Part shown: positions 28,787-59,717 of the stretch, in pieces
Layout: each line of letters begins with the position of its first letter
Position numbering within the stretch: the first letter of the stretch is position 1
Assembly: GCA_934045905.1 (NCBI GenBank)
Contig: OW203768.1
Coordinates: forward strand, 33,881,060-33,945,059
Source of the DNA: Leuctra nigra
Lineage: Eukaryota > Arthropoda > Insecta > Plecoptera > Leuctridae
Direction: 5' to 3'
Length of the DNA: 64,000 nt
Position numbers and translations under genes: made by a program
Notes under the pieces: generated by a model
What the model was told of the DNA's origin: nothing
The model's input: only the letters and a program-made list of their open reading frames with translations
Databases searched by the model: none

Positions 28787-29075
28787 ATGATGAAACTAAT
28801 GATTGGACCAGCTATTGTCACTTGGATCCTGGCAACCAACGCCTCCACCTCGACGATGACATCAAGCGGCGTGTTCGCGAAGTCCAGGGTTCGTACCCCG
28901 GCCGCCATGTCCGACGTGTGTCCTCCGCCCCCGCCGCCGTCGGCACTGCAGTCCAACATGGCCGCCCATGCCACAGGCCCGTGTGAATGCAAGGGACAGG
29001 AAGTGAAGCCAATGGTCGTACGTCAGCAGTGCATGGTCGAACTGCAAGCTAGCAAGATGAATCACAAAGCTCAAG
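28787..29075 (+). CDS. candidate exon 1 of the repeat gene (putative signal peptide)
   Basis: Predicted start MMKLMIGPAIVTWILATNAS resembles a signal peptide, followed by a Ser/Thr/Pro-rich part and CECKGQEVKPMVVRQQCMVE. The exon ends CTCAAG|GTAACG, a good donor, one base into a codon (phase 1), which matches the array acceptors (G + AT = Asp). Its GC-rich composition agrees with exons 2 and 3. Caveats: 28857-28906 resembles a SINE tRNA-like head (AGGGTTCGTACCCCGG), and a SINE body fragment follows at 29160. The true exon might instead begin after CGGCACTGCAG at 28951, using ATG 28958 (AACATGG). In that case there is no signal peptide. No homologue recognised. Confidence 0.42.
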
Positions 29076-29159
29076 GTAACGTCAAGAATATTGTTGGGGA
29101 CAGAAATATTATGAGTTATGCCATCCAAGGAATCTTGTTCTCTAGATTTTTATTTATTT

Positions 29160-29212
29160 TTCCCGGTCGAGTGGCAAATGCTGGGATGGTTCCCAAATAA
29201 TACGTCACCACC
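29160..29212 (+). mobile_element. SINE body fragment
   Basis: CCCGGTCGAGTGGCAAATGC and TGGGATGGTTCCCAAATAAT match the SINE body (CCCTCAGTCGACAGGCAAAT, TGGGAAGGTACCC). It is separated from a possible head at 28857-28906 by the exon core. Confidence 0.55.
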
Positions 29213-29428
29213 GTACACTCCTGGACACGGAAAATGGTCCGCAGTCAATATTCACTCGACTCCTAGGCTAGTATTTATTATTTATTTAAAGTAATTTTTC
29301 GGCCCTAAATTAACACTAGCCATCCGGTCTTTGTGCCAAAAAATTACATTAAAATAAATGTTAAATACTAGTCGTAGTGTCACTTGAACATTGACCGTGG
29401 ACCAATTTCAGTGTCCAGGAGTGTACGT
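29212..29428. mobile_element. 217-bp fold-back MITE
   Basis: Left arm CGTACACTCCTGGACACGG...AATGGTCCGCAGTCAAT at 29212-29258 pairs with 29377-29428 (ATTGACCGTGGACCAATTTC, GTGTCCAGGAGTGTACG). Confidence 0.7.
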
Positions 29429-29434
29429 CTTCTT

Positions 29435-29448
29435 CCCCCCCCCCCCCC
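29435..29448. repeat. C14 homopolymer
   Basis: Uninterrupted C14 directly after the fold-back MITE. Confidence 0.95.
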
Positions 29449-29489
29449 TATTTATACTCCTCCATCGACATCGACATCGTCGTCATACC

Positions 29490-29750
29490 CAACCGATCTG
29501 AAATTGTGCACACACACTAATGCAATCGAAGCGGTCCCGTGTGTTTTTCAACAGGACCTTCTGATGTTTTTCAAATTAAAACTGGAGCCGTTTGACCGAT
29601 CAGCCTCACATGTTGCATGGTCAACAGGACCAACATTTTGGGTGTTATTGTCAATTTTCAGACCAATCTGTTGTTACCTTCAAAAGCTTTTGATATTTTA
29701 CGGCCATTTTAGATTATTATGGCCGGCGCGTCAACGACGAGGTTATATTG
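29490..29750 (+). mobile_element. TE-A-like remnant
   Basis: CCGATCTGAAATTGTGCACAC, GAGCCGTTTGACCGATCAGC and GCATGGTCAACAGGACCAAC match TE-A subrepeats. Strongly diverged. Confidence 0.5.
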
Positions 29751-29779
29751 CGCACATTAATTTTAACTTATAACTTTGT

Positions 29780-32530
29780 TGATCATAAGTGGAGGGCATG
29801 GGAGGGGTTGACCTAACGGGCCCGATCCGGAAGAGTCTGAACCTTGTGGGGAAGCCAGTTCAGAATGGTGACTATGATGGGGACAGACCGGGGGGGGCTT
29901 TGGGTTGTTGGGATCCGGTGGGATCCGATTTCAGGGGTATCACCATCTCGAGGGGGGAGGCCGGCTTATAGGGGCCCGCTATTTGGAGAGGGCATGGGAC
30001 TAAGTCGACTCTGGACTGCACTTAGTTGGGACCAACTCGTAATGTGAGGCGATCCCTTAAGGGGAAGGATCGGCTGACTGCTCCCAGAGAATCAGCTCTA
30101 ATTGCTATTGTGGGCGGGGTTTTTAAAGGTAAATAAGGCGGGATCAGATTTGGCGACGAATTTGTTGTCATTACTGTGATTGGTCTAGCTGGGAACAATG
30201 TTTGATATGAATGTTTTCTTCCGACTTTAATTCCCATGCAAAAAATGTAAACAGAAGTGAGATCGGATACCCCGAGTATTGTTGTTATGATCGCTGGGTC
30301 CAGACTGGTTACCAACTCAAATGACATAATTGGCATCACTTTCACAACACGAACAAAATCATCGAGGATCAAGAATAATCACACGCAATAAAGTGTTCAA
30401 CACTTATCTAATAGATTCAAAGATTGCAAATCCTTTTATTGATTTTTATTCCAACCATTATAACGGCGATATATGACACTGATCTTATTTCACCACCTGA
30501 GAGTATAATGCCATTGGAAAAATTTGTTTACGAATAGGTATAGGTAGTCTCATTTCTCTCTGGGTTCTTTACTAAGAGAATAATATTATCGCAATCAGAG
30601 CAAGAAAATCATTTTGGTTTTTGTGCATGTGGTTCTTGTAATAGAACGTAGACACTGTCTACTGTCTACTTCTTGTAAGTAGAGAGTAGAAAATACGAAA
30701 AATAATGAAATAAAGTAATAAAAATACACACGAATATTTCCAGCCTTTTCTCCGGACTATATAAGTGGTATGTTGTGAAATTTATAAATCAATGAATTAG
30801 GTAACACGATGTTGAAATTTTGAAATAATATCATATATTATTTCATTGCTCAAAACTAGTAGAAAAAAATCAACAAAAAGTCACACACTTTATATTTTAT
30901 ATTTTGAAACCTTTGACACCTACATCGATTTTTTTTTAAATGGAATGGTTGGAGTAATGATAACGGTCAATACAACAATTAAATAATTATTCGCCGTTTG
31001 TCTGACAAATCATTGCTATCGGTGACCTAAACCTGTGTTCGGGATTAACGTGTGAAATAACACGTACAATGTATAATTATCATTCAGTTGCTATGATACA
31101 CATTGCAACCAAAAATATTTCTTTACCTGTATAACATACAGTTTTCAGTTATAAATAATAAAATAGTGCATACATTAGGGACACACATTGATGTGCTCTT
31201 AGCGAGCGTCGAAATTCATCTGTTATTCTGCACTAATAATTGTAGACGGGAAACCTGTTCGACATTGTTGTCACAATGAGAATAAATACACATCGTGACA
31301 TAACCTTGCCGAGATTGACTCAAGAATAAAAGATAGCCCGAGATGCTACTATTTACAGTGAATTATTATGGATGCTTAGAGAAGTGTTGCCGATTTCAAC
31401 AGTTATTCAATTAGCAAAAATCAATTAGCAATTAGCAAATTATCAAAAAAACATAAATATTCAAATTAAAATTAAAAAAATAGCATAAAAAATAATATTA
31501 AGTGAGTCTTTTTTAATACAACAGCGAATTTTCTTATGATAAATTAAATTGTTGGGAAGATTTGAACATGGCTGTTTTGAATATCAACATTCTATGTTTC
31601 TGAAAATGTTCACTTACATTTTATCAACTTACAATGAAAATTTAATTTTAGGCCATTTCCAATCATTTTAGACGGTATACACTTTATGATAGATAGATTT
31701 TTATAAATTAGGTAAGATGATTTAGACAACTCTGAGGTCCGTCTGTCTCCAGTCGTCGTTGATTGTGTAAATGCCGGGGAAACTGATGATTATTGTTGAC
31801 ATACAAACTCTCGCTATCAGTGCACTATTTATATTTCCATGCTGTCTCTAAGGACCCTCCCATCATCCCCTTCCACACCGTTACTGGAACTCCCAGAATG
31901 TTTACTTGCAACTTCAGTCGGTTTCAGTGCCCCTGGTTTTATGCAAAACTCATAACATTGATGGTGTGAGAAAGCAAATTGTGCCTCTACCGATCAAGTT
32001 AGAAAAAAAGTTTCAAGAGCAAAGTTGCTTGAAATTAAATCTAGTTTAAGCGTTGTTGAACCAATTTTTTAAATTATTAGTTTTATTTTCTCAATAATTA
32101 CGCAACATATAACTACTTATAACTTTAAGGTGATTAAAAATGTCAAATAAGTGGTCAACGCTGCATAATCTGCAATTCATTCTCCACAACTTTGTCGCTT
32201 TAACATCTAGTCTATCTTCAACGAGACGGGACGATAACTGCTTTCCAGCCGAGGTCCTCATTCAGAGGCTCTTCCTTCCCCTTAAGCCCCACCACCGTTG
32301 GTGAGGGTTTTACGACAAAAAATAAAAGAAAGGGGCTGATTTTGTCGAAACTTACCAAATTGATTGAAATAAAGTTCAAATTTAAATAATTTCCCGGGGC
32401 TATATGCCCCGGACCTGCATTTGCAAAATCTATTACCATTTTGTGGACATTGGTAATTTATGTTTCCCAAAAATAACATATCTGCGATTCAAAATTGCAC
32501 CAAATCATATGACCTTGAACTAAAACTTTT
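29780..32530. other. intron 1 interior: G-rich patch then long AT-rich stretch
   Basis: 29790-30160 is unusually G-rich (GACCGGGGGGGGCTTTGGG) with short ORFs on both strands and no recognised protein. 30160-32530 is AT-rich with nothing identifiable apart from a short GC-rich patch at 32220-32410. In the gene model, 29076-32718 is intron 1. Confidence 0.4.
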
Positions 32531-32655
32531 GGAGGCTGCGCCCCATTAACACCCCTGTTTCCGCTCGTCATTTTTCAAATGATAAAGAATACCCCCCCCC
32601 CCCCCCCCCCCACCATCATTTCGAAATGTCATCCATCCTGCGTACGCCCTTGATA
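32530..32655. mobile_element. transposon end abutting the array (C20 tract)
   Basis: TGGAGGCTGCGCCCC, a C20 run (32592-32611) and CATCCTGCGTACGCCCTTG resemble the right end of the element at 15590-16327 (GGGCGTA(C/T)NCAGGAT reversed). The end lies only about 60 bp before the first array acceptor. Confidence 0.45.
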
Positions 32656-32705
32656 GGCGGCATTATCATTTTTCGCTTATGGAACGTCAACCGGCCCTGA
32701 ATCAA

Positions 32706-35700
32706 CTGCTTGTTCCAGATGCTCCCTGCTCCCGTGTCGCCTCTCCCGATGCGTGCGACAGCGTGCCACTGGAGTGCGTGCTTCTTGTTCCAGATGCTCC
32801 CTGCTCCCGTGTCGCCTCTCCCGATGCGTGCGACAGCGAGCCACTGGAGTGCGTGCTTCTTGTTCCAGATGCTCCCTGCTCCCGTGTCGCCTCTCCCGAT
32901 GCGTGCGACAGCGTGCCACTAGAGTGCGTGCTTCTTGTTCCAGATGCTCCCTGCTCCCGTGTCGCCTCTCCCGATGCGTGCGACAGCGTGCCACTGGAGT
33001 GCGTGCTTCTTGTTCCAGATGCTCCCTGCTCCCGTGTCGCCTCTACCGATGCGTGCGACAGCGTGCCACTGGAGTGCGTGCTTCTTGTTCCAGATGCTCC
33101 CTGCTCCCGTGTCGCCTCTCCCGATGCGTGCGACAGCGTGCCACTGGAGTGCGTGCTTATTGTTCCAGATGCTCCCTGCTCCCGTGTCGCCTCTCCCGAT
33201 GCGTGCGACAGCGTGCCACTGGAGTGCGTGCTTCTTGTTCCAGATGCTCCCTGCTCCCGTGTCGCCTCTCCCGATGCGTGCGACAGCGTGCCACTGGAGT
33301 GCGTGCTTCTTGTTCCAGATGCTCCCTGCTCCCGTGTCGCCTCTCCCGATGCGTGCGACAGCGTGCCACTGGAGTGCGTGCTTCTTGTTCCAGATGCTCC
33401 CTGCTCCCGTGTCGCCTCTCCCGATGCGTGCGACAGCGTGCCACTGGAGTGCGTGCTTCTTGTTCCAGATGCTCCCTGCTCCCGTGACGCCTCTCCCGAT
33501 GCGTGCGACAGCGTGCCACTGGAGTGCGTGCTTCTTGTTCCAGATGCTCCCTGCTCCCGTGTCGCCTCTCCCGATGCGTGCGACAGCGTGCCCCTGGAGT
33601 GCGTGTTTCTTGTTCCAGATGCTCCCTGCTCCCGTATCGCCTCTCCCGATGCGTGCGACAGCGTGCCACTGGAGTGCGTGCTTCTTGTTCCAGATGCTCC
33701 CTGCTCCCGTGTCGCCTCTCCCGATGCGTGCGACAGCGTGCCACTGGAGTGCGTGCTTCTTGTTCCAGATGCTCCCTGCTCCCGTGTCGCCTCTCCCGAT
33801 GCGTGCGACAGCGTGTCACTGGAGTGCGGGCTTCTTGTTCCAGATGCTCCCTGCTCCCGTGTCGCCTCTCCCGATGCGTGCGACAGCGTGCCACTGGAGT
33901 GCGTGCTTCTTGTTCCAGATGCTCCCTGCTCCCGTGTCGCCTCTCCCGATGCGTGCGACAGCGTGCCACTGGAGTGCGTGCTTCTTGTTCCAGATGCTCC
34001 CTGCTCCCGTGTCGCCTCTCCCGATGCGTGCGACAGCGTGCCACTGGAGTGCGTGCTTCTTGTTCCAGATGCTCCCTGCTCCCGTGTCGCCTCTCCCGAT
34101 GCGTGCGACAGCGTGCCCCTGGAGTGCGTGCTTCTTGTTCCAGATGCTCCCTGCTCCCGTGTCGCCTCTTTCGATGCGTGCGACAGCGTGCCACTGGAGT
34201 GCGTGCTTCTTGTTCCAGATGCTCCCTGCTCCCGTGTCGCCTCTCCCGATGCGTGCGACAGCGTGCCACTGGAGTGCGTGCTTCTTGTTCCAGATGCTCC
34301 CTGCTCCCGTGTCGCCTCTCCCGATGCGTGCGACAGCGTGCCACTGGAGTGCGTGCTTCTTGTTCCAGATGCTCCCTGCTCCCGTGTCGCCTCTCCCGAT
34401 GCGTGCGACAGCGTGCCACTGGAGTGCGTGCTTCTTGTTCCAGATGCTCCCTGCTCCCGTGTCGCCTCTCCCGATGCGTGCGACAGCGTGCCACGGGAGT
34501 GCGTGCTTCTTGTTCCAGATGCTCCCTGCTCCCGTGTCGCCACTCCCGATGCGTGCGACAGCGTGCCACGGGAGTGCGTGCTTCTTGTTCCAGGTGCTCC
34601 CTGCTCCCGTGTCGCCTCTCCCGATGCGTGCGACAGCGTGCCACTGGAGTGCGTGCTTCTTGTTCCAGGTGCTCCCTGCTCCCGTGTCGCCTCTCCCGAT
34701 GCGTGCGACAGCGTGCCACTGGAGTGCGTGCTTCTTGTTCCAGATGCTCCTTGCTCCCGTGTCGCCTCTTCCGATGCGTGCGACAGCGTGCCACTGGAGT
34801 GCGTGCTTCTTGTTCCAGATGCTCCCTGCTCCCGTGTCGCCTCTCCCGATGCGTGCGACAGCGTGCCACTGGAGTGCGTGCTTCTTGTTCCAGATGCTCC
34901 CTGCTCCCGTGTCGCCTCTCCCGATGCGTGCGACAGCGTGCCACTGGAGTGCGTGCTTCTTGTTCCAGATGCTCCCTGCTCCCGTGTCGCCTCTCCCGAT
35001 ACGTGCGACAGCGTGCCACTGGAGTGCGTGCTTCTTGTTCCAGATGCTCCCTGCTCCCGTGTCGCCTCTCCCGATGCGTGCGACAGCGTGCCACGGGAGT
35101 GCGTGCTTCTTGTTCCAGATGCTCCCTGCTCCCGTGTCGCCTCTTCCGATGCGTGCGACAGCGTGCCACTGGAGTGCGTGCTTCTTGTTCCAGATGCTCC
35201 CTGCTCCCGTGTCGCCTCTCCCGATGCGTGCGACAGCGTGCCACTGGAGTGCGTGCTTCTTGTTCCAGATGCTCCCTGCTCCCGTGTCGCCTCTCCCGAT
35301 GCGTGCGACAGCGTGCCACTGGAGTGCGTGCTTCTTGTTCCAGATGCTCCCTGCTCCCGTGTCGCCTCTCCCGATGCGTGCGACAGCGTGCCACTGGAGG
35401 GCGGGCTTCTTGTTCCAGATGCTCCCTGCTCCCGTGTCGCCTCTCCCGATGCGTGCGACAGCGTGCCACTGGAGTGCGTGCTTCTTGTTCCAGATGCTCC
35501 CTGCTCCCGTGTCGCCTCTCCTGATGCTTGCGACAGCGTGCCACTGGAGTGCGTGCTTCTTGTTCCAGATGCTCCCTGCTCCCGTGTCGCCTCTCCCGAT
35601 GCGTGCGACAGCGTGCCACTGGAGGGCGGGCTTCTTGTTCCAGATGCTCCCTGCTCCCGTGTCGCCTCTCCCGATGCGTGCGACAGCGTGCCACTGGAGT

Positions 35701-38700
35701 GCGTGCTTCTTGTTCCAGATGCTCCCTGCTCCCGTGTCGCCTCTCCCGATGCGTGCGACAGCGTGCCACTGGAGTGCGTGCTTCTTGTTCCAGATGCTCC
35801 CTGCTCCCGTGTCGCCTCTCCCGATGCGTGCGACAGCGTGCCACTGGAGTGCGTGCTTCTTGTTCCAGATGCTCCCTGCTCCCGTGTCGCCTCTCCCGAT
35901 GCGTGCGACAGCGTGCCACTGGAGTGCGTGCTTCTTGTTCCAGATGCTCCCTGCTCCCGTGTCGCCTCTCCCGATGCGTGCGACAGCGTGCCACTGGAGT
36001 GCGTGCTTCTTGTTCCAGATGCTCCCTGCTCCCGTGTCGCCTCTCCCGATGCGTGCGACAGCGTGCCCCTGGATTGCGTGCTTCTTGTTCCAGATGCTCC
36101 CTGCTCCCGTGTCGCCTCTCCCGATGCGTGCGACAGCGTGCCACTGGAGTGCGTGCTTCTTGTTCCAGATGCTCCCTGCTCCCGTGTCGCCTCTCCCGAT
36201 GCGTGCGACAGCGTGCCACTGGAGTGCGTGCTTCTTGTTCCAGATGCTCCCTGCTCCCGTGTCGCCTCTCCCGATGCGTGCGACAGCGTGCCACTGGAGG
36301 GCGGGCTTCTTGTTCCAGATGCTCCCTGCTCCCGTGTCGCCTCTCCCGATGCGTGCGACAGCGTGCCACTGGAGTGCGTGCTTCTTGTTCCAGATGCTCC
36401 CTGCTCCCGTGTCGCCTCTCCCGATGCGTGCGACAGCGTGCCACTGGAGTGCGTGCTTCTTGTTCCAGATGCTCCCTGCTCCCGTGTCGCCTCTCCCGAT
36501 GCGTGCGACAGCGTGCCACTGGAGTGCGTGCTTCTTGTTCCAGATGCTCCCTGCTCCCGTGTCGCCTCTCCCGATGCGTGCGACAGCGTGCCACTGGAGT
36601 GCGTGCTTCTTGTTCCAGATGCTCCCTGCTCCCGTGTCGCCTCTCCCGATACGTGCGACAGCGTGCCACTGGAGTGCGTGCTTCTTGTTCCAGATGCTCC
36701 CTGCTCCCGTGTCGCCTCTCCCGATGCGTGCGACAGCGTGCCACTGGAGTGCGTGCTTCTTGTTCCAGATGCTCCCTGCTCCCGTGTCGCCTCTCCCGAT
36801 GCGTGCGACAGCGTGCCACTGGAGTGCGTGCTTCTTGTTCCAGATGCTCCCTGCTCCCGTGTCGCCTCTCCCGATAAGTGCGACAGCGTGCCACTGGAGT
36901 GCGTGCTTCTTGTTCCAGATGCTCCCTGCTCCCGTGTCGCCTCTCCCGATGCGTGCGACAGCGAGCCACTGGAGTGCGTGCTTCTTGTTCCAGATGCTCC
37001 CTGCTCCCGTGTCGCCTCTCCCGATGCGTGCGACAGCGTGCCACTAGAGTGCGTGCTTCTTGTTCCAGATGCTCCCTGCTCCCGTGTCGCCTCTCCCGAT
37101 GCGTGCGACAGCGTGCCACTGGAGTGCGTGCTTCTTGTTCCAGATGCTCCCTGCTCCCGTGTCGCCTCTCCCGATGCGTGCGACAGCGTGCCACTGGAGT
37201 GCGTGCTTCTTGTTCCAAATGCTCCCTGCTCCCGTGTCGCCTCTCCCGATGCGTGCGACAGCGTGCCACTGGAGTGCGTGCTTCTTGTTCCAGATGCTCC
37301 CTGCTCCCGTGTCGCCTCTCCCGATGCGTGCGACAGCGTGCCACTGGAGTGCGTGCTTCTTGTTCCAGATGCTCCCTGCTCCCGTGTCGCCTCTCCCGAT
37401 GCGTGCGACAGCGTGCCACTGGAGTGCGGGCTTCTTATTCCAGATGCTCCCTGCTCCCGTGTCGCCTCTCCCGATGCGTGCGACAGCGTGCCACTGGAGT
37501 GCGTGCTTCTTGTTCCAGATGCTCCCTGCTCCCGTGTCGCCTCTCCCGATGCGTGCGACAGCGTGCCACTAGAGTGCGTGCTTCTTGTTCCAGATGCTCC
37601 CTGCTCCCGTGTCGCCTCTCCCGATGCGTGCGACAGCGTGCCACTGGAGTGCGTGCTTCTTGTTCCAGATGCTCCCTGCTCCCGTGTCGCCTCTCCCGAT
37701 GCGTGCGACAGCGAGCCACTGGAGTGCGTGCTTCTTGTTCCAGATGCTCCCTGCTCCCGTGTCGCCTCTACCGATGCGTGCGACAGCGTGCCACTGGAGT
37801 GCGTGCTTCTTGTTCCAGATGCTCCCTGCTCCCGTGTCGCCTCTCCCGATGCGTGCGACAGCGTGCCACTGGAGTGCGTGCTTCTTGTTCCAGATGCTCC
37901 CTGCTCCCGTGTCGCCTCTCCCGATGCGTGCGACAGCGTGCCACTGGAGTGCGTGCTTCTTGTTCCAGATGCTCCCTGCTCCCGTGTCGCCTCTCCCGAT
38001 GCGTGCGACAGCGTGCCACTGGAGTGCGTGCTTCTTGTTCCAGATGCTCCCTGCTCCCGTGTCACCTCTCCCGATGCGTGCGACAGCGTGCCACTGGAGT
38101 GCGTGCTTCTTGTTCCAGATGCTCCCTGCTCCCGTGTCGCCTCTCCCGATGCGTGCGACAGCGTGCCACTGGAGTGCGTGCTTCTTGTTCCAGATGCTCC
38201 CTGCTCCCGTGCCGCCTCTCCCGATGCGTGCGACAGCGTGCCACTGGAGTGCGTGCTTCTTGTTCCAGATGCTCCCTGCTCCCGTGTCGCCTCTCCCGAT
38301 GCGTGCGACAGCGTGCCACTGGAGTGCGTGCTTCTTGTTCCAGATGCTCCCTGCTCCCGTGTCGCCTCTCCCGATGCGTGCGACAGCGTGCCACTGGAGT
38401 GCGTGGGTGTTCCAGATGCTCCCTGCTCCCGTGTCGCCTCTCCCGATACGTGCGACAGCGTGCCACTAGAGTGCGTGCTTCTTGTTCCAGATGCTCCCTG
38501 CTCCCGTGTCGCCTCTCCCGATGCGTGCGACAGCGTGCCACTGGAGTGCGTGCTTCTTGTTCCAGATGCTCCCTGCTCCCGTGTCGCCTCTCCCGATGCG
38601 TGCGACAGCGTGCCACTGGAGTGCGTGCTTCTTGTTCCAGATGCTCCCTGCTCCCGTGTCGCCTCTCCCGATGCGTGCGACAGCGTGCCACTGGAGTGCG

Positions 38701-47700: not shown

Positions 47701-50700
47701 TTCCAGATGCTCCCTGCTCCCGTGTCGCCTCTCCCGATGCGTGCGACAGCGTGCCACTGGAGTGCGTGCTTCTTGTTCCAGATGCTCCCTGCTCCCGTGT
47801 CGCCTCTCCCGATGCGTGCGACAGCGTGCCACTGGAGTGCGTGGGTGTTCCAGATGCTCCCTGCTCCCGTGTCGCCTCTCCCGATACGTGCGACAGCGTG
47901 CCACTAGAGTGCGTGCTTCTTGTTCCAGATGCTCCCTGCTCCCGTGTCGCCTCTCCCGATGCGTGCGACAGCGTGCCACTGGAGTGCGTGCTTCTTGTTC
48001 CAGATGCTCCCTGCTCCCGTGTCGCCTCTCCCGATGCGTGCGACAGCGTGCCACTGGAGTGCGTGCTTCTTGTTCCAGATGCTCCCTGCTCCCGTGTCGC
48101 CTCTCCCGATGCGTGCGACAGCGTGCCACTGGAGTGCGTGCTTCTTGTTCCAGATGCTCCCTGCTCCCGTGTCGCCTCTCCCGATGCGTGCGACAGCGTG
48201 CCACTGGAGTGCGTGCTTCTTGTTCCAGATGCTCCCTGCTCCCGTGTCGCCTCTCCCGATGCGTGCGACAGCGTGCCACTGGAGTGCGTGCTTCTTGTTC
48301 CAGATGCTCCCTGCTCCCGTGTCGCCTCTCCCGATGCGTGCGACAGCGTGCCACTGGAGTGCGTGGGTGTTCCAGATGCTCCCTGCTCCCGTGTCGCCTC
48401 TCCCGATACGTGCGACAGCGTGCCACTAGAGTGCGTGCTTCATGTTCCAGATGCTCCCTGCTCCCGTGTCGCCTCTCCCGATGCGTGCGACAGCGTGCCA
48501 CTGGAGTGCGTGCTTCTTGTTCCAGATGCTCCCTGCTCCCGTGTCGCCTCTCCCGATGCGTGCGACAGCGTGCCACTGGAGTGCGTGCTTCTTGTTCCAG
48601 ATGCTCCCTGCTCCCGTGTCGCCTCTCCCGATGCGTGCGACAGCGTGCCACTGGAGTGCGTGCTTCTTGTTCCAGATGCTCCCTGCTCCCGTGTCGCCTC
48701 TCCCGATGCGTGCGACAGCGTGCCACTGGAGTGCGTGCTTCTTGTTCCAGATGCTCCCTGCTCCCGTGTCGCCTCTCCCGATGCGTGCGACAGCGTGCCA
48801 CTGGAGTGCGTGCTTCTTGTTCCAGATGCTCCCTGCTCCCGTGTCGCCTCTCCCGATGCGTGCGACAGCGTGCCACGGGAGTGCGTGCTTCTTGTTCCAG
48901 ATGCTCCCTGCTCCCGTGTCGCCTCTCCCGATGCGTGCGACAGCGTGCCACTGGAGTGCGTGCTTCTTGTTCCAGATGCTCCCTGCTCCCGTGTCGCCTC
49001 TCCCGATGCGTGCGACAGCGTGCCACTGGAGTGCGTGCTTCTTGTTCCAGATGCTCCCTGCTCCCGTGTCGCCTCTCCCGATGCGTGCGACAGCGTGCCA
49101 CTGGAGTGCGTGCTTCTTGTTCCAGATGCTCCCTGCTCCCGTGTCGCCTCTCCCGATGCGTGCGACAGCGTGCCACTGGAGTGCGTGCTTCTTGTTCCAG
49201 TAGCTCCCTGCTCCCGTGTCGCCTCTCCCGATGCGTGCGACAGCGTGCCACTGGAGTGCGTGCTTCTTGTTCCAGATGCTCCCTGCTCCCGTGTCGCCTC
49301 TCCCGATGCGTGCGACAGCGTGCCACTGGAGTGCGTGCTTCTTGTTCCAGATGCTCCCTGCTCCCGTGTCGCCTCTCCCGATGCGTGCGACAGCGTACCC
49401 CTGGAGTGCGTGCTTCTTGTTCCAGATGCTCCCTGCCCCCGTGTCGCTTCTCCCGATGCGTGCGACAGCGTGCCACTGGAGTGCGTGCTTCTTGTTCCAG
49501 ATGCTCCCTGCTCCCGTGTCGCCTCTCCCGATGCGTGCGACAGCGTGCCACTGGAGTGCGTGCTTCTTGTTCCAGATGCTCCCTGCTCCCGTGTCGCCTC
49601 TCCCGATGCGTGCGACAGCGTGCCACTGGAGTGCGTGCTTCTTGTTCCAGGTGCTCCCTGCTCCCGTGTCGCCTCTCCCGATGCGTGCGACAGCGTGCCA
49701 CTGGAGTGCGTGCTTCTTGTTCCAGATGCTCCCTGCTCCCGTGTCGCCTCTCCCGATGCGTGCGACAGCGTGCCACTGGAGTGCGTGCTTCTTGTTCCAG
49801 ATGCTCCCTGCTCCCGTGTCGCCTCTCCCGATGCGTGCGACAGCGTGCCACTGGAGTGCGTGCTTCTTGTTCCAGATGCTCCCTGCTCCCGTGTCGCCTC
49901 TCCCGATGCGTGCGACAGCGTGCCACTGGAGTGCGTGCTTCTTGTTCCAGATGCTCCCTGCTCCCGTGTCGCCTCTCCCGATGCGTGCGACAGCGTGCCA
50001 CTGGAGTGCGTGCTTCTTGTTCCAGATGCTCCCTGCTCCCGTGTCGCCTCTCCCGATGCGTGCGACAGCGTGCCACTGGAGTGCGTGCTTCTTGTTCCAG
50101 ATGCTCCCTGCTCCCGTGTCGCCTCTCCCGATGCGTGCGACAGCGTGCCACTGGAGTGCGTGGGTGTTCCAGATGCTCCCTGCTCCCGTGTCGCCTCTCC
50201 CGATACGTGCGACAGCGTGCCACTAGAGTGCGTGCTTCTTGTTCCAGATGCTCCCTGCTCCCGTGTCGCCTCTCCCGATGCGTGCGACAGCGTGCCACTG
50301 GAGTGCGTGCTTCTTGTTCCAGATGCTCCCTGCTCCCGTGTCGCCTCTCCCGATGCGTGCGACAGCGTGCCACTGGAGTGCGTGCTTCTTGTTCCAGATG
50401 CTCCCTGCTCCCGTGTCGCCTCTCCCGATGCGTGCGACAGCGTGCCACTGGAGTGCGTGCTTCTTGTTCCAGATGCTCCCTGCTCCCGTGTCGCCTCTCC
50501 CGATGCGTGCGACAGCGTGCCACTGGAGTGCGTGCTTCTTGTTCCAGATGCTCCCTGCTCCCGTGTCGCCTCTCCCGATGCGTGCGACAGCGTGCCACTG
50601 GAGTGCGTGCTTCTTGTTCCAGATGCTCCCTGCTCCCGTGTCGCCTCTCCCGATGCGTGCGACAGCGTGCCACTGGAGTGCGTGCTTCTTGTTCCAGATG

Positions 50701-53700
50701 CTCCCTGCTCCCGTGTCGCCTCTCCCGATGCGTGCGACAGCGTGCCACTGGAGGGCGGGCTTCTTGTTCCAGATGCTCCCTGCTCCCGTGTCGCCTCTCC
50801 CGATGCGTGCGACAGCGTGCCACTAGAATGCGTGCTTCTTGTTCCAGATGCTCCCTGCTCCCGTGTCGCCTCTCCCGATGCGTGCGACAGCGTGCCACTG
50901 GAGTGCGTGCTTCTTGTTCCAGATGCTCCCTGCTCCCGTGTCGCCTCTCCCGATGCGTGCGACAGCGTGCCACTGGAGTGCGTGCTTCTTGTTCCAGATG
51001 CTCCCTGCTCCCGTGTCGCCTCTCCCGATGCGTGCGACAGCGTGCCACTGGAGTGCGTGCTTCTTGTTCCAGATGCTCCCTGCTCCCGTGTCGCCTCTCC
51101 CGATGCGTGCGACAGCGTGCCACTGGAGTGCGTGCTTCTTGTTCCAGATGCTCCCTGCTCCCGTGTCGCCTCTCCCGATGCGTGCGACAGCGTGCCCCTG
51201 GAGTGCGTGCTTCTTGTTCCAGATGCTCCCTGCTCCCGTGTCGCCTCTCCCGATGCGTGCGACAGCGTGCCACTGGAGTGCGTGCTTCTTGTTCCAGATG
51301 CTCCCTGCTCCCGTGTCGCCTCTCCCGATGCGTGCGACAGCGTGCCACTGGAGTGCGTGCTTCTTGTTCCAGATGCTCCCTGCTCCCGTGTCGCCTCTCC
51401 CGATGCGTGCGACAGCGTGCCACTGGAGTGCGTGCTTCTTGTTCCAGATGCTCCCTGCTCCCGTGTCGCCTCTCCCGATGCGTGCGACAGCGTGCCACTG
51501 GAGTGCGTGCTTCTTGTTCCAGATGCTCCCTGCTCCCGTGTCGCCTCTCCCGATGCGTGCGACAGCGTGCCACTGGAGTGCGTGCTTCTTGTTCCAGATG
51601 CTCCCTGCTCCCGTGTCGCCTCTCCCGATGCGTGCGACAGCGTGCCACTGGAGTGCGTGCTTCTTGTTCCAGATGCTCCCTGCTCCCGTGTCGCCTCTCC
51701 CGATGCGTGCGACAGCGTGCCACTGGAGTGGGTGCTTATTGTTCCAGATGCTCCCTGCTCCCGTGTCGCCTCTCCCGATGCGTGCGACAGCGTGCCACTG
51801 GAGTGCGTGCTTCTTGTTCCAGTAGCTCCCTGCTCCCGTGTCGCCTCTCCCGATGCGTGCGACAGCGTGCCACTGGAGGGCGGGCTTCTTGTTCTAGATG
51901 CTCCCTGCTCCCGTGTCGCCTCTCCCGATGCGTGCGACAGCGTGTCACTGGAGTGCGGGCTTCTTGTTCCAGATGCTCCCTGCTCCCGTGTCGCCTCTCC
52001 CGATGCGTGCGACAGCGTGCCACTGGAGTGCGTGCTTCTTGTTCCAGATGCTCCCTGCTCCCGTGTCGCCTCTTCCGATGCGTGCGACAGCGTGCCACTG
52101 GAGTGCGTGCTTCTTGTTCCAGATGCTCCCTGCTCCCGTGTCGCCTCTCCCGATGCGTGCGACAGCGTGCCACTGGAGTGCGTGCTTCTTGTTCCAGATG
52201 CTCCCTGCTCCCGTGTCGCCTCTCCCGATGCGTGCGACAGCGTGCCACTGGAGTGCGTGCTTCTTGTTCCAGATGCTCCCTGCTCCCGTGTCGCCTCTCC
52301 CGATGCGTGCGACAGCGTGCCACTGGAGTGCGTGCTTTTTGTTCCAGATGCTCCTTGCTCCCGTGTCGCCCCTCCCGATGCGTGCGACAGCGTGCCACTG
52401 GAGTGCGTGCTTCTTGTTCCAGATGCTCCCTGCTCCCGTGTCGCCTCTCCCGATGCGTGCGACAGCGTGCCACTGGAGTGCGTGCTTCTTGTTCCAGATG
52501 CTCCCTGCTCCCGTGTCGCCTCTCCCGATGCGTGCGACAGCGTGCCACTGGAGTGCGTGCTTCTTGTTCCAGATGCTCCCTGCTCCCGTGTCGCCTCTCC
52601 CGATGCGTGCGACAGCGTGCCACTGGAGTGCGTGCTTCTTGTTCCAGATGCTCCCTGCTCCCGTGTCGCCTCTCCCGATGCGTGCGACAGCGTGCCACTG
52701 GAGTGCGTGCTTCTTGTTCTAGATGCTCCCTGCTCCCGTGTCGCCTCTCCCGATGCGTGCGACAGCGTGCCCCTGGAGTGCGTGCTTCTTGTTCCAGATG
52801 CTCCCTGCTCCCGTGTCGCCTCTCCCGATGCGTGCGACAGCGTGCCACTGGAGTGCGTGCTCCTTGTTCCAGATGCTTCCTGCTCCCGTGTCGCCTCTCC
52901 CGATGCGTGCGACAGCGTGCCACTGGAGTGCGTGCTTCTTGTTCCAGATGCTCCCTGCTCCCGTGTCGCCTCTCCCGATGCGTGCGACAGCGTGCCACTG
53001 GAGTGCGTGCTTCTTGTTCCAGATGCTCCCTGCTCCCGTGTCGCCTCTCCCGATGCGTGCGACAGCGTGCCACTGGAGTGCGTGCTTCTTGTTCCAGATG
53101 CTCCCTGCTCCCGTGTCGCCTCTCCCGATGCGTGCGACAGCGTGCCACTGGAGTGCGTGCTTCTTGTTCCAGATGCTCCCTGCTCCCGTGTCGCCTCTCC
53201 CGATACGTGCGACAGCGTGCCACTGGAGTGCGTGCTTCTTGTTCCAGATGCTCCCTGCTCCCGTGTCGCCTCTCCCGATGCGTGCGACAGCGTGCCACGG
53301 GAGTGCGTGCTTCTTGTTCCAGATGCTCCCTGCTCCCGTGTCGCCTCTTTCGATGCGTGCGACAGCGTGCCACTGGAGTGCGTGCTTCTTGTTCCAGATG
53401 CTCCCTGCTCCCGTGTCGCCTCTCCCGATGCGTGCGACAGCGTGCCACTGGAGTGCGTGCTTCTTGTTCCAGATGCTCCCTGCTCCCGTGTCGCCTCTCC
53501 CGATGCGTGCGACAGCGTGCCACTGGAGTGCGTGCTTCTTGTTCCAGATGCTCCCTGCTCCCGTGTCGCCTCTCCCGATGCGTGCGACAGCGTGCCACTG
53601 GAGGGCGGGCTTCTTGTTCCAGATGCTCCCTGCTCCCGTGTCGCCTCTCCCGATGCGTGCGACAGCGTGCCACTGGAGTGCGTGCTTCTTGTTCCAGATG

Positions 53701-54584
53701 CTCCCTGCTCCCGTGTCGCCTCTCCCGATGCGTGCGACAGCGTGCCACTGGAGTGCGTGCTTCTTGTTCCAGATGCTCCCTGCTCCCGTGTCGCCTCTCC
53801 CGATGCGTGCGACAGCGTGCCACTGGAGTGCGTGCTTCTTGTTCCAGATGCTCCCTGCTCCCGTGTCGCCTCTCCCGATGCGTGCGACAGCGTGCCACTG
53901 GAGTGCGTGCTTCTTGTTCCAGATGCTCCCTGCTCCCGTGTCGCCTCTCCCGATGCGTGCGACAGCGTGCCACTGGAGTGCGTGCTTCTTGTTCCAGATG
54001 CTCCCTGCTCCCGTGTCGCCTCTCCCGATGCGTGCGACAGCGTGCCACTGGAGTGCGTGCTTCTTGTTCCAGATGCTCCCTGCTCCCGTGTCGCCTCTCC
54101 CGATACGTGCGACAGCGTGCCACTGGAGTGCGTGCTTCTTGTTCCAGATGCTCCCTGCTCCCGTGTCGCCTCTCCCGATGCGTGCGACAGCGTGCCACTG
54201 GAGTGCGTGCTTCTTGTTCCAGATGCTCCCTGCTCCCGTGTCGCCTCTCCCGATGCGTGCGACAGCGTGCCCCTGGAGTGCGTGCTTCTTGTTCCAGTAG
54301 CTCCCTGCTCCCGTGTCGCCTCTCCCGATGCGTGCGACAGCGTGCCACTGGAGTGCGTGCTTCTTGTTCCAGATGCTCCCTGCTCCCGTGTCGCCTCTCC
54401 CGATGCGTGCGACAGCGTGCCCCTGGAGTGCGTGCTTCTTGTTCCAGATGCTCCCTGCTCCCGTGTCGCCTCTCCCGATGCGTGCGACAGCGTGCCACTG
54501 GAGTGCGTGCTTCTTGTTCCAGATGCTCCCTGCTCCCGTGTCGCCTCTCCCGATGCGTGCGACAGCGTGCCACTGGAGTGCGTG
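32706..54584 (+). repeat. 21.9-kb array of 292 units of 75 bp
   Basis: Unit: ATGCTCCCTGCTCCCGTGTC, GCCTCTCCCGATGCGTGCGA, CAGCGTGCCACTGGAGTGCG, TGCTTCTTGTTCCAG. The distance from the first to the last unit acceptor (32719 to 54523) is 21,804 bp, exactly 291 x 75 minus 7 x 3. This agrees with seven visible 72-bp variants (GTGGGTGTTCCAG in place of GTGCTTCTTGTTCCAG, near 38405, 38930, 45074, 45595, 47844, 48364 and 50162) and no other indel. About seven CpG per unit, roughly 65% GC. Private variants recur at 6,669-bp spacing (33.7-39.8 kb against 40.4-46.5 kb) and 2,769-bp spacing (44.7-47.4 against 47.5-50.2 kb), showing block duplications. Confidence 0.98.
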
Positions 54585-54721
54585 TTCCGAGCACGCTACC
54601 CGCACATGACGCACATCCGCAAGACGATCTCGCCATATGACGTCGATGACGTCGATGTGTGTCGTCGCTATCTGACGTCATATCGCGATGAGATGTGTCG
54701 GCCAGCGGCTCTTGCCACCAG
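32719..54721 (+). CDS. candidate exon 2 of the repeat gene: amplified acceptor and exon start
   Basis: One frame is open without a stop from ATG 32679 to 54746, the longest of several open frames. Each 25-residue unit reads DAPCSRVASPDACDSVPLEC plus VLLVP (three Cys, acidic). After the last unit comes a unique 46-residue tail (RARYPHMTHIRKTISPYDVD, then VCRRYLTSYRDEMCRP) and then CCACCAG|GTATAAG, a strong donor in phase 2. Every unit ends CTTCTTGTTCCAG|AT, an acceptor in phase 1, so exon 2 may begin at any of them: 22,003 nt from the first, 199 nt from the last (54523). The residues LLVP probably translate former intron end. Substitutions look neutral. Coding is best supported for the last unit plus tail. 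No homologue recognised; secretion is inferred only from exon 1. Confidence 0.45.
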
Positions 54722-55064
54722 GTATAAGACTCAAACCAGAAAGTAACTGAAACTAACTAAATGTAGGATTCATACGTAACATTGTAATATGTAATTATCT
54801 CTTTATTTATAGCCAATGCTATTTTACAGTCAAGTTTACGAAAATAATGAGTAGTATACACATTCTAAGACGGATGGGTAGTGAGTTTGACCTTTAAGAG
54901 TTTAATCGATTTTTATCAATATCTTTTACCAATGTAATTGTAAACAAAACAAGTCTTTGTTCGAGTATTCAGAACAGTTCAATTAAAATAATTCCATAGC
55001 TTGTAATGGTTATTAGATTTATACTTTGTCCTACAGACGTTTAGTGCCCGAAAATTAGTAAAAT

Positions 55065-55122
55065 TTTTATTTATTTATTATTTTATTATTTATTATTTAT
55101 TTATTTATTATTTATTGATTGA
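55065..55122 (-). repeat. A/T-only tail of the LINE
   Basis: On the minus strand this is AATAAATAA-type repeat, at the expected 3' end of the element about 100 nt after its stop codon. Confidence 0.75.
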
Positions 55123-55219
55123 TACAACTTTGACTAATGCTACTATACATGTTTCAATTATTAATAATAGTCAATGTTCTTAAGTGCACTTATTCGTCGG
55201 TTGTTGTAGTTTTATAAGT

Positions 55220-58108
55220 TCATGTCGGAATAATGGACTTCATCCTCTTCCTCAATTCTTTATTGTTCTGGGGAAGTGGCTCCACGACGCTGGCAGGCAG
55301 GTTGTTCCACAATCTGATCCCATGCGCTGCGAGAGAGAACTTGCCAGTGTCTGTTCGCGGCTGCAACAGACGAATTTTCTCGGTGTGGTCTCCTCTCGCG
55401 GTGTAATTCGGTCTCTGCAGTAGCTCACCTAGCTCCTCCCAAGCCTCTTCATGGCAGTAAGCCCTGTATATAGCGATAGCTCTGGATGCGTCTCGCCGGT
55501 CTTCCAGAGACTCCCACTTCAGTGATTTTATGAGTTCAGTGGGGCCAGGAGAGTTTCCGAATGAACTCTCAACATACCGTGCAGCCCTCCTCTGTACCAT
55601 ATCCAGCTGGTGTTTATTCACCATGGTATATGGACTCCACACACTGGCACAATATTCCATCTGTGGACGAACAAGGGTGAGATATGCCAGTTCCTTTGCC
55701 TTCTTTGCTGCACCTTTGAGGTTCCTCATGACGAACTGCAGTGATTTGGATGCCTTCTTTGAAGTTACATCAATGTGGTTATTCCACTTCAGGTCATCAG
55801 ACAGCCACACTCCAAGGTACTTAGCATCCTTTGTGGGATCAATTGGTAGGTTCCCAAGCTGGTACTGGTACTGTATCCGTGTTTTCCTAGTGCTGAATGA
55901 CATCTTGATGGTCTTATCGATGTTGATTCGCATCTGATTCAGGTCCACCCACTTGGCTAGTTCTTCGAGGTCTTCCTGGAGCTGCCCGCAGTCATTGGTG
56001 TTGTTGACAGTCCTGTAGATTATACAGTCGTCTGCGAACAGCCGCAATTTGGAGTGCAAGATACACTGTGGAAGATCGTTCATAAAGATCAAGAAGAGGA
56101 GTGGACCGAGAACACTTCCCTGGGGTACTCCTGATGTCACTGTAATTGGCAGGGAGATTTCTCCTTCAATCCTTACTACTTGCTTTCTGTTATTTAGAAA
56201 GCTCCATATCCACTTAATGACCTCCTTGTTAAGATTTAGTTGGGATATCTTTTCCATAAGGAGGTCATGTGGCACTAAATCAAATGCTTTGGCAAAATCT
56301 ATTAGGATGGCATCAACTTGCTTTGCTCTGAAGTCCACTTCTTGAACTAGGTCTTGTGTAAGACCCACGAGACTAGCCTCACAAGAGTAGTGAGGTCGGA
56401 AGCCAAATTGACTTCTTGTGAAGAATTGAGTTTCGTCTAGGATTTGCCTGATTTGTTTTTCAATTATCTTCTCAAGTATTTTACATGGAATACAAGTTAG
56501 ACTTATAGGCCTATAGTTGGAAACGGAGCTCTTACTACCACCCTTGTGTATTGGCGAGACAATTGCCATTGTCCAATCGGTGGGTAGGGTGCTTTCTTCT
56601 ATCGATTGTGAAAAAATTATATGTAGATAGTCTAGTCCTGCCGATCCTGCAGTTTTTAGTAGATCTCCTGTGATACCGTCTGGACCAGCAGTAGTTCCAG
56701 GTTTTAGATTTTTAATAACATCCCATATTCCATGAGTACTAATCACCAGGGGATTCAAATTATCTCCAACAATGGAAGGAGCTCTATGGTTCTTCGTTGA
56801 GAAAACATTTCCATAAAAGTCGTTGAGAGCGTTGGCTTTGTCTAGATTTGTTGTTAGTATCTTATTGTTCAGTTTTATTGCTGGTATCGATCTTGAGCTG
56901 CATTTTTTGCTATTGATGTAGCTGTAAAACCTCTTCCAATTCGTTCTTGGGGCTCCATCTTCCATCAATAAGTTAGCCATATATTTGTCATAGCAGAATC
57001 TCTTGGCTTCAATCAACTTGTTTGAAAGGGTCTTGAAACGTGCCTTGTCAGCATGGGACCGCTTGCGATGTGAGTAGGCTCTCTGAACTTCTTTCTTCAG
57101 ATGTTTCACTTTATCATTATAGTAGATGGGATCACTGTTCTTCTTAATTACTCTGTGCGGAATGAACTTGTCTCTTGCTTGCATGATGATTTTCTTAAAC
57201 GACTCCCATTTTTCATTTATCGTAATATTATCTGATTTCCAAGCAAGAAAATTGCATCTCAGGAACTCTCCAAGGCCACGTCGGTCAGCTTTCTTGTACT
57301 GCCATGATGTTAAGGGCTCCATCTTGGGAATCGTGTGCAATGGGGTGAGTTCAAGGATGACTGCGTCGTGGTCACTAATACCTGGGACAACTTCTGTGTC
57401 CCACCATATTTCAGGTGGTTGAACAAGGATAACATCCAGAATATTAGAACTTCCATCTGTTTTGGTCCTCGTGCCCTCCTTAACAGTTTGTATAATATTA
57501 AAATTACTTTGCAATGAATTTACAAGTAACTGCGCATGATTTTGCCCACTTGGGTTATCACTGTCCCACTCAACATCAGGGAGGTTTAGATCTCCTCCTA
57601 TGACTGTGTGAGCCGTCGAGTCAGTGTTGCACTTTAAGTCTAATAGAGTTGTATGAAGTTCCTCCATCAAGGTATAGTCATTCCTGTTGGGATTATAAGC
57701 ACCAATCACCTGAACTTTTATATTGTCCTGTAGAATAACTGTCACACAGAGTAGTTCAGCTGTAGCACTTGATGAATTAATGTGGGCTGAGAGTTCCTTT
57801 TTCACACATATGGCTATTCCACCACCCCGGCTCCCTCTATCCCGTCTGAATACTTGATACTCTGATACAGGAAATATTTCGTTGTCATGATGATCTGGCG
57901 TTAGCCAGGTTTCTGTACCTATGACAATATCAGGCATATGAAGTTCTATAAGATCTTGAAACAGAAGTTGTTTATTATTCAAACTTCTACAATTAACCAG
58001 CAGTACTTTGAAGCGTCTGGTCGTTCCATGTTCTTTGCTTCTCATGATGGTGGAGTCTCCCTCGTCCTCTCGCGAAAAAACCGCCGGACCATTACACCTG
58101 CTGGCCAT
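55220..58108 (-). CDS. LINE ORF2: endonuclease-reverse transcriptase, apparently intact
   Basis: 962 aa, uninterrupted. It nicks target DNA and copies the element RNA by target-primed reverse transcription. Apurinic-type endonuclease motifs: GTETWL (64-69), GGDLNLP (171-177) and SDHDAV (245-250). RT motifs: NYRPISL (531-537), DFAKAFD (604-610), GVPQGSVLGP (660-669) and FADD (691-694). The C-terminal part has the usual W..Y/R-rich thumb region and no RNase H is evident. The architecture fits the jockey/CR1 group. The first ~20 residues overlap the end of the ORF1 fragment in another frame, so the true start may be Met22. It lies antisense in intron 2 of the candidate repeat gene. Confidence 0.92.
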   Translation of the reverse strand: MASRCNGPAVFSREDEGDSTIMRSKEHGTTRRFKVLLVNCRSLNNKQLLFQDLIELHMPDIVIGTETWLTPDHHDNEIFPVSEYQVFRRDRGSRGGGIAICVKKELSAHINSSSATAELLCVTVILQDNIKVQVIGAYNPNRNDYTLMEELHTTLLDLKCNTDSTAHTVIGGDLNLPDVEWDSDNPSGQNHAQLLVNSLQSNFNIIQTVKEGTRTKTDGSSNILDVILVQPPEIWWDTEVVPGISDHDAVILELTPLHTIPKMEPLTSWQYKKADRRGLGEFLRCNFLAWKSDNITINEKWESFKKIIMQARDKFIPHRVIKKNSDPIYYNDKVKHLKKEVQRAYSHRKRSHADKARFKTLSNKLIEAKRFCYDKYMANLLMEDGAPRTNWKRFYSYINSKKCSSRSIPAIKLNNKILTTNLDKANALNDFYGNVFSTKNHRAPSIVGDNLNPLVISTHGIWDVIKNLKPGTTAGPDGITGDLLKTAGSAGLDYLHIIFSQSIEESTLPTDWTMAIVSPIHKGGSKSSVSNYRPISLTCIPCKILEKIIEKQIRQILDETQFFTRSQFGFRPHYSCEASLVGLTQDLVQEVDFRAKQVDAILIDFAKAFDLVPHDLLMEKISQLNLNKEVIKWIWSFLNNRKQVVRIEGEISLPITVTSGVPQGSVLGPLLFLIFMNDLPQCILHSKLRLFADDCIIYRTVNNTNDCGQLQEDLEELAKWVDLNQMRINIDKTIKMSFSTRKTRIQYQYQLGNLPIDPTKDAKYLGVWLSDDLKWNNHIDVTSKKASKSLQFVMRNLKGAAKKAKELAYLTLVRPQMEYCASVWSPYTMVNKHQLDMVQRRAARYVESSFGNSPGPTELIKSLKWESLEDRRDASRAIAIYRAYCHEEAWEELGELLQRPNYTARGDHTEKIRLLQPRTDTGKFSLAAHGIRLWNNLPASVVEPLPQNNKELRKRMKSIIPT

Positions 58109-58263
58109 GAGGCTGGATCATTCATGCTGGCTAGGAGTATGTGGTTTGCCGTGACTTTGAAGGAATTGAATGATTCACTTCTGTTTTGCAGCTGCTCACA
58201 CTCAAACTCGTTACTTTTGTACTTCTTCACTAAGTACTCCTTCACTCCTACTCCTTATGGCAC
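58042..58263 (-). pseudogene. LINE ORF1, C-terminal fragment (5'-truncated)
   Basis: The minus strand reads KEYLVKKYKSNEFECEQL and then a tail with SFKVTANHILLASMNDPASW and PAGVMVRRFF, the kind of ending seen in LINE ORF1 proteins before the ORF2 start. It overlaps ORF2 in a different frame. No upstream ORF1 sequence (coiled coil, zinc knuckle) is found, so the element is 5'-truncated near 58300. Confidence 0.65.
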
Positions 58264-58314
58264 TAAGCATCTGTTGGACAAAATAAAACTAATAACTTAT
58301 TCCAAACTATGAAA

Positions 58315-59340
58315 TTATTTTCATTGAACTGTTCTAAAAACCTCTTCAAGGCCACGCTCTCTACTCAGCCCTCTTAAACGTTTGATCCTTGATTCATCTA
58401 AAGTTTAAAGTCAATTCATGCGGAATGGAAGGGTTTAGGCCATATGGCTACGTTACGTCAAAATTATTATTATTATTACACGTGTTGTTTTACATTTATT
58501 GAAAATCGTTTGCACTATTTTTGTAGTGAATACTTAATATTGTAAATTCAAATTTGATAATTGACATATTATTTTAATTCAAAATGGTTTTAGGATTACT
58601 TCACCTAAACGATTGTCTTGGACTAGACTCCACTACTAACCACTATGTAACTCCTATACGTAGTACGACTTTTTCTCACTAGAGGAGCGCTGTCAATGGA
58701 GCTGGAATTTAGTACCAATTTAACTCCCTGGGGTTATACTGTCGTGCATGTACATAATGCTTATTATTATTACTGTCTCTTAGAACCATGATAATACCAT
58801 GTTTGAACTTACTTATGTTTATGTGTAAATTGGAATTTGTGCAATTACATCATAAAGTTCACTTGGTAACACAACACCTAATATACACCTCATAAAGTTA
58901 TACTTCTTTATGAAATAGCCCCTAGCGTGGGGTGTTGAAAGGAAGTATGGGAGATGTGCAAATATATACTCAAATTAAATCGAAACGATTTATTACAATC
59001 CCTGCATAATTAAATATAATATCACTAGTAATTATCAATTCAATTAAAATCTGGATATTCAATACAGTCCACTCTACTTCTTTATGATAAAATAAAATAA
59101 AATTAAACTATACTTTTTGTTATACATAGGTACAAAAATGCAGTTGTTGTTGGTATATGTAGTAAAGTTATTTTATAGAAGTTATGTGAATGGCAACATA
59201 TCGTGTAAAAGCTGTACCTATACTTCACAGTTCACTGAATTTCAAATTATGACTGTACACATTTGTAAAAAGAGAAGTTCACGATTTTCCAAGAGTCAAA
59301 TTCGAAAAATTAAAGTTTAGAGGGTGATCCTATACCCCTT
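58315..59340. other. AT-rich stretch, nothing recognised
   Basis: Between the truncated LINE end and candidate exon 3 there is no supported gene or clear repeat. Confidence 0.5.
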
Positions 59341-59387
59341 ATTTTGTGGCAGAGAATTTGAGTTCTAAATGGCTTTCTGTCTACCAG

Positions 59388-59646
59388 ATCTGATTACGAT
59401 TACGCCCGCTACTTGCGCCAGCGCGCTGCTGCCGGACAAGAGCGTCTGGGTACTCGTTGTGCCTCGCGTCCCGAGGGTCCCTGCCGTCCCGACCCTGGCG
59501 TCGGCGGCCCGCCCGCCTCCCGCCGTCACTGCGCCGTCCTCCAGGCGTCGCCCGTCCGCCCGGCGCAGGACATCGTCGACGCCATGCGGGACAGAGACAA
59601 GTGCCACCTCCACGACGGCGTTGGTCTCGGCAGGCGGGTCAGATAG
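59388..59646 (+). CDS. candidate exon 3 (last) of the repeat gene
   Basis: Acceptor GGCTTTCTGTCTACCAG at 59371-59387. Joined to exon 2 in phase 2, it reads R, then SDYDYARYLRQRAAAGQERL and a Cys/Pro/Arg-rich stretch (TRCASRPEGPCRPDPGVGG, HCAVLQASPVRPAQDIVDAM, RDRDKCHLHDGV) to TAG 59644-59646, 85 residues. GC-rich in an AT-rich setting, like exons 1 and 2. AATAAA lies 66 nt downstream. Overlapping frames also lack early stops, which is common in GC-rich DNA, but only this frame fits the splice phase. With exon 1 and the last array unit the protein would be 248 aa with at least a dozen Cys. No family recognised. Confidence 0.48.
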
Positions 59647-59711: not shown

Positions 59712-59717
59712 AATAAA
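59712..59717 (+). terminator. poly(A) signal after exon 3
   Basis: AATAAA within GTGAAAATAAAACCC, 66 nt after the predicted stop, consistent with a short 3' UTR. Confidence 0.45.

Follow-up and report, generated by a model that had tools for sequence, protein, structure and literature searches.

The array at 32706-54584 (+) of the 64,000-nt stretch of Leuctra nigra DNA analyzed here (contig OW203768.1; the window) is interpreted as a duplicated splice boundary, resembling the mirages of amphioxus, that is now read for the most part as a single giant exon of coding sequence starting at its first acceptor. The probability of this reading was put at about 0.45. The array would form part of a probable three-exon gene predicted from the sequence at 28787-59646, the elements of which are as follows.

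28486..28491, plus strand: TATA-like box upstream of exon 1 (pattern match only; another match at 28415)
28787..29075, plus strand: predicted exon 1 with ATG start and donor CAAG/GTAACG in phase 1 (GC, donor score)
29076..32718, plus strand: predicted intron 1, assuming splicing to the first acceptor; branch-like CTTAT at 32676-32680 (its A lies 39 nt before that acceptor)
32706..54584, plus strand: array of 292 units (62 nt of exon start preceded by 13 nt of intron end), reading in frame as DAPCSRVASPDACDSVPLECVLLVP (TRF, segmentation, edges)
32719..54721, plus strand: predicted exon 2, first-acceptor version, 22,003 nt (open frame, phase)
54523..54721, plus strand: predicted exon 2, last-acceptor version, 199 nt (phase)
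54585..54721, plus strand: unique exon tail of about 46 residues with donor CCAG/GTATAAG in phase 2 (GC, donor score)
54722..59387, plus strand: predicted intron 2, which contains a non-LTR retrotransposon in antisense orientation (domain matches)
55220..58117, minus strand: unbroken 965-aa endonuclease and reverse transcriptase open frame of the non-LTR retrotransposon in predicted intron 2 (PF00078, 4.5e-36; PF14529, 1.7e-14)
59388..59646, plus strand: predicted last exon with TAG end, AATAAA at 59712 (GC, acceptor score)

The gene model fits the base composition, splice site scores, and phase. The GC content of exon 1 is 0.58 versus 0.40 and 0.37 in its flanks, that of the unique tail of exon 2 is 0.58 versus 0.28 downstream, and that of the last exon is 0.70 versus 0.30 and 0.29, with flanks of the predicted exons ranging overall from 0.28 to 0.44. 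When scored with hand-entered matrices, the exon 1 donor was in the top 1.6% of the 2,372 GTs outside the array, the exon 2 donor (final exon base 54721, GT from 54722) was weak at the top 5.8%, and the last-exon acceptor was in the top 1.2% of the 2,024 AGs outside the array. With the same matrices, the first acceptor and the common unit acceptor were placed in the top 1.5% and 0.9% of these AGs, consistent with the preliminary description, in which the units were considered to carry credible 3' splice sites. The matching phases proposed there for the donors at 29075 and 54721 and the acceptor at 59388 were also found, and the three exons join in frame with a stop at the end. Both predicted lengths were reproduced. 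Spliced to the first acceptor, the coding sequence amounts to 22,551 nt, a multiple of 3, and would encode 7,516 aa before its single, terminal stop; spliced to the last, it amounts to 747 nt and would encode 248 aa plus stop. A single plus-strand frame is open from 32586 to 54746. The start of exon 1, MMKLMIGPAIVTWILATNA, is hydrophobic and resembles a signal peptide by eye, and the predicted long product contains 1173 Pro, 895 Ser, 876 Cys, and 34 Thr among its 7,516 residues.

The array itself is far beyond chance. TRF returned 32709-54584 with a period of 75, 292.0 copies, 98% matches, and 0% indels, while segmentation gave 292 head-to-tail units over about 21.9 kb, comprising 284 units of 75 nt, 7 of 72 nt, and a final partial unit from 54522 that diverges from the repeat after 63 nt. 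The roughly 292-fold amplification of an acceptor and exon start in one phase, as originally described, is borne out by this count and by a plus-strand frame that is open throughout. Forty unit sequence types were distinguished, the partial last one included, the commonest accounting for 178 of the 292 units. The sole indel type is the change of CTTCTT to GGT in seven units (−3 nt, frame kept), and the acceptor following this 72-nt variant scores 4.7 compared with 9.1 for the common unit acceptor. In six units with CCAGGTGCTC, an A-to-G variant creates CAG/GT right at the acceptor, so that a weak donor-like site is present there in addition to the acceptor. AG is present at the unit boundary in 290 of the 292 units, mostly after the same pyrimidine run. 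The two exceptions, at 37218 and 43887, are separated by 6,669 bp and belong to a block that is duplicated exactly, so that they count as one variant, in keeping with the earlier observation of a single AG-destroying change.

This exact block is 6,322 bp long and is repeated at a shift of 6,669 bp (33637-39958 and 40306-46627). Further exact runs inside the array comprise one of 2,637 bp, displaced by 2,769, and one of 2,188 bp, displaced by 9,438. Since such duplicates are of kilobase scale, the independent unit histories must be far fewer than 292, and the array is either young or in part an assembly product. The 6,322-bp duplicate would likewise stem from a block duplication of very recent date or from misassembly, and the copy number of 292 is uncertain because 6.3 kb of the array is exactly duplicated, whether recently or by misassembly.

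The duplicated piece was deduced from the edges of the array. At the left edge, the intron end included in the unit is 13 nt long, CT[G/T]CTTGTTCCAG, and 12 of these 13 nt are identical to the unique left flank; the flank beyond this stretch is unrelated to the unit. At the right edge, the sequence departs from the unit after GAGTGCGTG and runs straight into the unique exon. These matches indicate that the duplicated piece, 75 nt long, combines 13 nt from the end of the intron with 62 nt of exon and excludes the region where a branch point would be expected. Tandem duplication of an intron end with about 61 nt of exon had been suggested previously; the array edges fit such an origin, with the exon part corrected to 62 nt and the intron part now set at 13 nt. 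We infer the following order of events. A 75-bp piece comprising the last 13 nt of intron 1 (the pyrimidine run and AG) and the first 62 nt of exon 2, without a branch-like motif, would have been tandemly duplicated with no frame break and would then have grown to about 292 copies, partly by kilobase block duplications. The 75-nt size and the stop-free 13-nt piece would allow the copies to be read through as VLLVPD.

Branch-like motifs bear on which acceptor may be used. The motif yTnAy occurs 15 to 60 nt upstream of only 3 of the 290 acceptors, namely the first (CTTAT, with its A 39 nt upstream) and two copies of one variant, and the looser TNA motif occurs in the same interval for 12 of the 290. 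Neither motif was found 15 to 60 nt upstream of the last acceptor. The yTnAy motif at the first acceptor suggests that this site is favored. The branch-point consensus in animals is loose, and yTnAy, which is common in AT-rich DNA, precedes 1,280 of 2,023 control AGs outside the array. Shuffling of the unit interior gave no yTnAy in 74% of shuffles; its absence from the GC-rich unit therefore shows no selection and bears only on which site may work.

In the proposed mechanism, the branch point was left behind in the unique intron, and exon 1 is most likely joined to the first AG. With splicing at this site, every later AG would lie within the exon, and translation would turn the former end of the intron into (V)LLVP(D). 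The gene product would be a secreted, cysteine-containing protein of about 7,500 residues, with a 25-residue repeat, three cysteines per unit, and short unique ends. The array, its frame, the phases, the GC islands, and the scarcity of branch-like motifs within the array are observed, and the exon boundaries, the use of the first acceptor, translation, and secretion are inferred. In favor of this reading, the frame is open across all 292 units, which advance in steps of 75 or 72 nt with no stop and no frameshift; the predicted exons coincide with GC islands and join in phase to a stop; and, apart from the first acceptor, yTnAy is near only 2 of the other 289, both copies of one variant.

The array was further analyzed for signs of selection. 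The 39 distinct substitutions comprise 30 nonsynonymous and 9 synonymous changes versus spectrum-matched expectations of 26.6 and 12.0 (P for ≥9 synonymous, 0.92), so that among these few events, with low power, no selection on the encoded repeat is visible. Codon selection was discarded as proof, and the substitutions look neutral. The number of stops in the array frame is 0 versus 0.44 expected, which makes the open frame unremarkable, and the unit consensus is free of stops in all six frames. Over the whole array, 3 to 20 stops interrupt every one of the other five frames, and coding on the minus strand or in another frame was rejected. Conservation of the AG was similarly rejected as proof of splice use, as the boundary AG sustained 1 event versus a mean of 1.04 per dinucleotide for the 39 substitutions. 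The splice tract (unit positions 62 to 75) sustained 8 events versus 7.3 expected; with so few events, neither figure supports selection on the splice sites.

The zero frameshifts were compared with other repeats of the window, for which 30 alignments gave 61 frameshifting gaps to 397 mismatches. This ratio predicts about 6 frameshifts in the array, whereas none was seen (P for zero, 0.0025 with all 30 control alignments, which overlap and of which three within one short satellite, 5978-6436, give 30 of 66 gaps). In the ten youngest control alignments, of at least 92% identity, there were 82 mismatches and 2 gaps, from which at most about 1 frameshift is predicted (P for zero, about 0.4; six of the ten lie within one other array). 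The outcome depends on the control set, and frame conservation gives weak support for a read frame.

The searches for relatives were negative within their scope. The single-unit protein of 247 aa had no homologue at an E of ≤1 among 1,015 candidates scored, and the last 24 units with the tail had none among 380 candidates scored, scoring being limited to proteins of 0.55 to 1.75 times the query length with shared exact 5-residue words. As hemipteran proteins are present in the searched protein database, these negatives carry meaning. No Pfam family was matched by the last-acceptor protein or by four units at an E of up to 1, the PDB gave only two chance-level matches (E of 0.55 and 0.58), and Rfam gave nothing across the window at gathering scores. 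The structure predicted from the single sequence of the last five units and tail (166 aa) had a pLDDT of 45 and was unusable.

Several other features were observed in the window. An AT-rich short repeat at 55066-55120 may be the 3' tail of the non-LTR retrotransposon in intron 2. Two exons of a knirps-type nuclear receptor are at 2052-2129 and 3278-3961 (+), with zf-C4 in the second, and the best three matches of the pair are planthopper and leafhopper knirps-like proteins (Laodelphax, Macrosteles, and Nilaparvata), which by themselves would point to a hemipteran. A second tandem array at 21361-22200 (7 copies of 120 bp, 98% matches) lies inside a 327-codon minus-strand open frame with Pfam matches only below curated cutoffs. 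The short satellite at 5978-6436 has the unit GTATCGCGATATGGGGAA with higher-order periods of 40 and 76 bp, and a perfect AATCTTG heptamer repeat of 6.4 copies is present at 61744-61788.

The chief rival reading is that the array is intronic, with the last acceptor (54522) used, a 199-nt exon 2, a 248-aa protein, and the other copies being silent duplicates. The last-acceptor product is in phase, the substitutions look neutral, and exon definition would favor an exon of 199 nt rather than one of 22 kb flanked by long introns. The amphioxus precedent points the same way, as the "authentic genic sections" of BflGb6 are reported to join transcripts, the duplicates are named apart from them, and mirages are reported not to disturb splicing (PMC3087553, PMC3902484); that the genic copy is the one adjoining the exon body is our own reading. 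Against an intronic array, the last acceptor has neither yTnAy nor TNA 15 to 60 nt upstream, and such an array need not have kept 75/72-nt steps or an open frame, although these latter arguments are weak here. As the branch-motif argument and the exon-definition and amphioxus arguments pull in opposite directions, the giant exon was preferred at somewhat under even odds, and the intronic array was retained as the foremost, less probable alternative.

It is less likely that this is not a working gene at present but a young minisatellite in a decayed or untranscribed locus with exons matched by chance, or an array inflated by misassembly. The lack of any homologue or domain in the above searches, the neutral substitutions, and the exact internal duplicates of 6,322 bp and 2,637 bp would all fit such a locus. 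The GC islands with splice-like edges and matching phases would not, and on the window background a given frame would stay open for 288 nt with a probability of only 0.017 and for 258 nt with one of 0.022, values that apply to exons picked after the fact. Slightly less likely again is the use of many acceptors to give proteins differing by 25-residue steps. The retention of AG in 290 of 292 units, the single phase, and the mostly good acceptor scores are consistent with this, and human boundary repeats are reported to be able to give alternative splicing (PMC2812944). These points of presence, phase, and score are, however, the only positive evidence, and free use of all of the approximately 290 acceptors, as originally proposed, was judged to be weakly supported. 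The unit has only 13 nt of intron end, yTnAy accompanies 3 of 290 acceptors, the AGs and splice tract show no preservation (1 event versus a mean of 1.04 and 8 versus 7.3 expected), and duplicates in amphioxus are reported not to disturb splicing. The further idea that splicing draws on the 290 in-phase acceptors to different extents and yields secreted proteins that form a ladder with 25-residue steps, copy number and ladder changing fast between individuals, was considered the most doubtful.

Among known systems, the closest likeness is to the amphioxus mirages, described as tandemly duplicated splice boundaries (PMC3087553, PMC3902484). In BflGb6, the repeats comprise an intron's 3' end together with the 5' part of the exon that follows; similar repeats are present in PGBD5, and the duplicated boundaries are reported not to disturb splicing (PMC3087553, PMC3902484). 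The array resembles BflGb6 in that its repeats would span a splice boundary, from the 3' end of an intron into the 5' part of an exon. The left edge, phase, and GC content agree on this, the intron-exon boundary itself being predicted. As in mirages, so far as described, many units keep a splice signal (here AG in 290 of 292 units), with homogenized units and unstable number. The array differs in scale, as BflGb6 is given 6 and 3 units of 150 to 160 bp in two haplotypes, compared with 292 of 75/72 bp, and in that the insect array is in one phase with an unbroken frame whereas the extra amphioxus copies, by the same accounts, leave splicing undisturbed. A boundary duplication of the mirage type is the favored analogy, and the array would seem to be an extreme instance of a known phenomenon.

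Other systems share parts of this layout. Human internal tandem repeats at exon-intron boundaries also cross the boundary and are kept in the exon or spliced out, and for 66% of intron changes a repeat-retaining transcript is also seen, but they average four 30-bp units and lie in segmental duplications (PMC2812944). Among the mucins, MUC2 exon 30 measures 8,793 bp and carries 98 repeats of 69 nt, two of which differ by ±3 bp, and MUC6 exon 31 includes a 12,294-bp sequence with 24 repeat units (PMC6269512). The very large internal exon, predicted here, and the short in-frame repeats are mucin-like, MUC2 units being 69 nt. The mucin repeats are described as Pro/Thr/Ser rich, whereas the predicted product here, with 1173 Pro and 895 Ser, has only 34 Thr and as many as 876 Cys in 7,516 residues and is not of that composition. 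VWD or SEA domains, given as a mucin feature (PMC1552070), were not found by Pfam (E up to 1) in the last-acceptor protein or in four units. The Balbiani ring genes of Chironomus, described as approximately 40 kb long with four introns and approximately 35 kb of repeats (PMC4192438), are likewise insect genes with a giant central tandem-repeat block, coding there and predicted to be coding here, and unique ends. Their gene layout differs in its four introns, and the likeness is one of layout, with no sequence relation claimed. As in a giant tandem-repeat exon of the mucin or Balbiani ring layout, the repeat frame is kept here through the whole predicted exon.

In the open-licence literature, no array of this size and no mirage turned giant coding exon was seen among the matches listed, as judged from titles and the starts of abstracts. 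What is unusual here is the array size, the single phase, and the possible conversion of a mirage to a giant coding exon. If the array is translated, intron sequence would have become a repeated protein segment, a route to giant repeat proteins. The array would also be a natural test of how the spliceosome chooses among near-identical 3' splice sites, with a branch-like motif close to the first copy and an exon-definition partner only beside the last. The duplicated splice boundaries of the literature, as far as the sources extend, have a handful of units, compared with nearly three hundred here, all in one phase.
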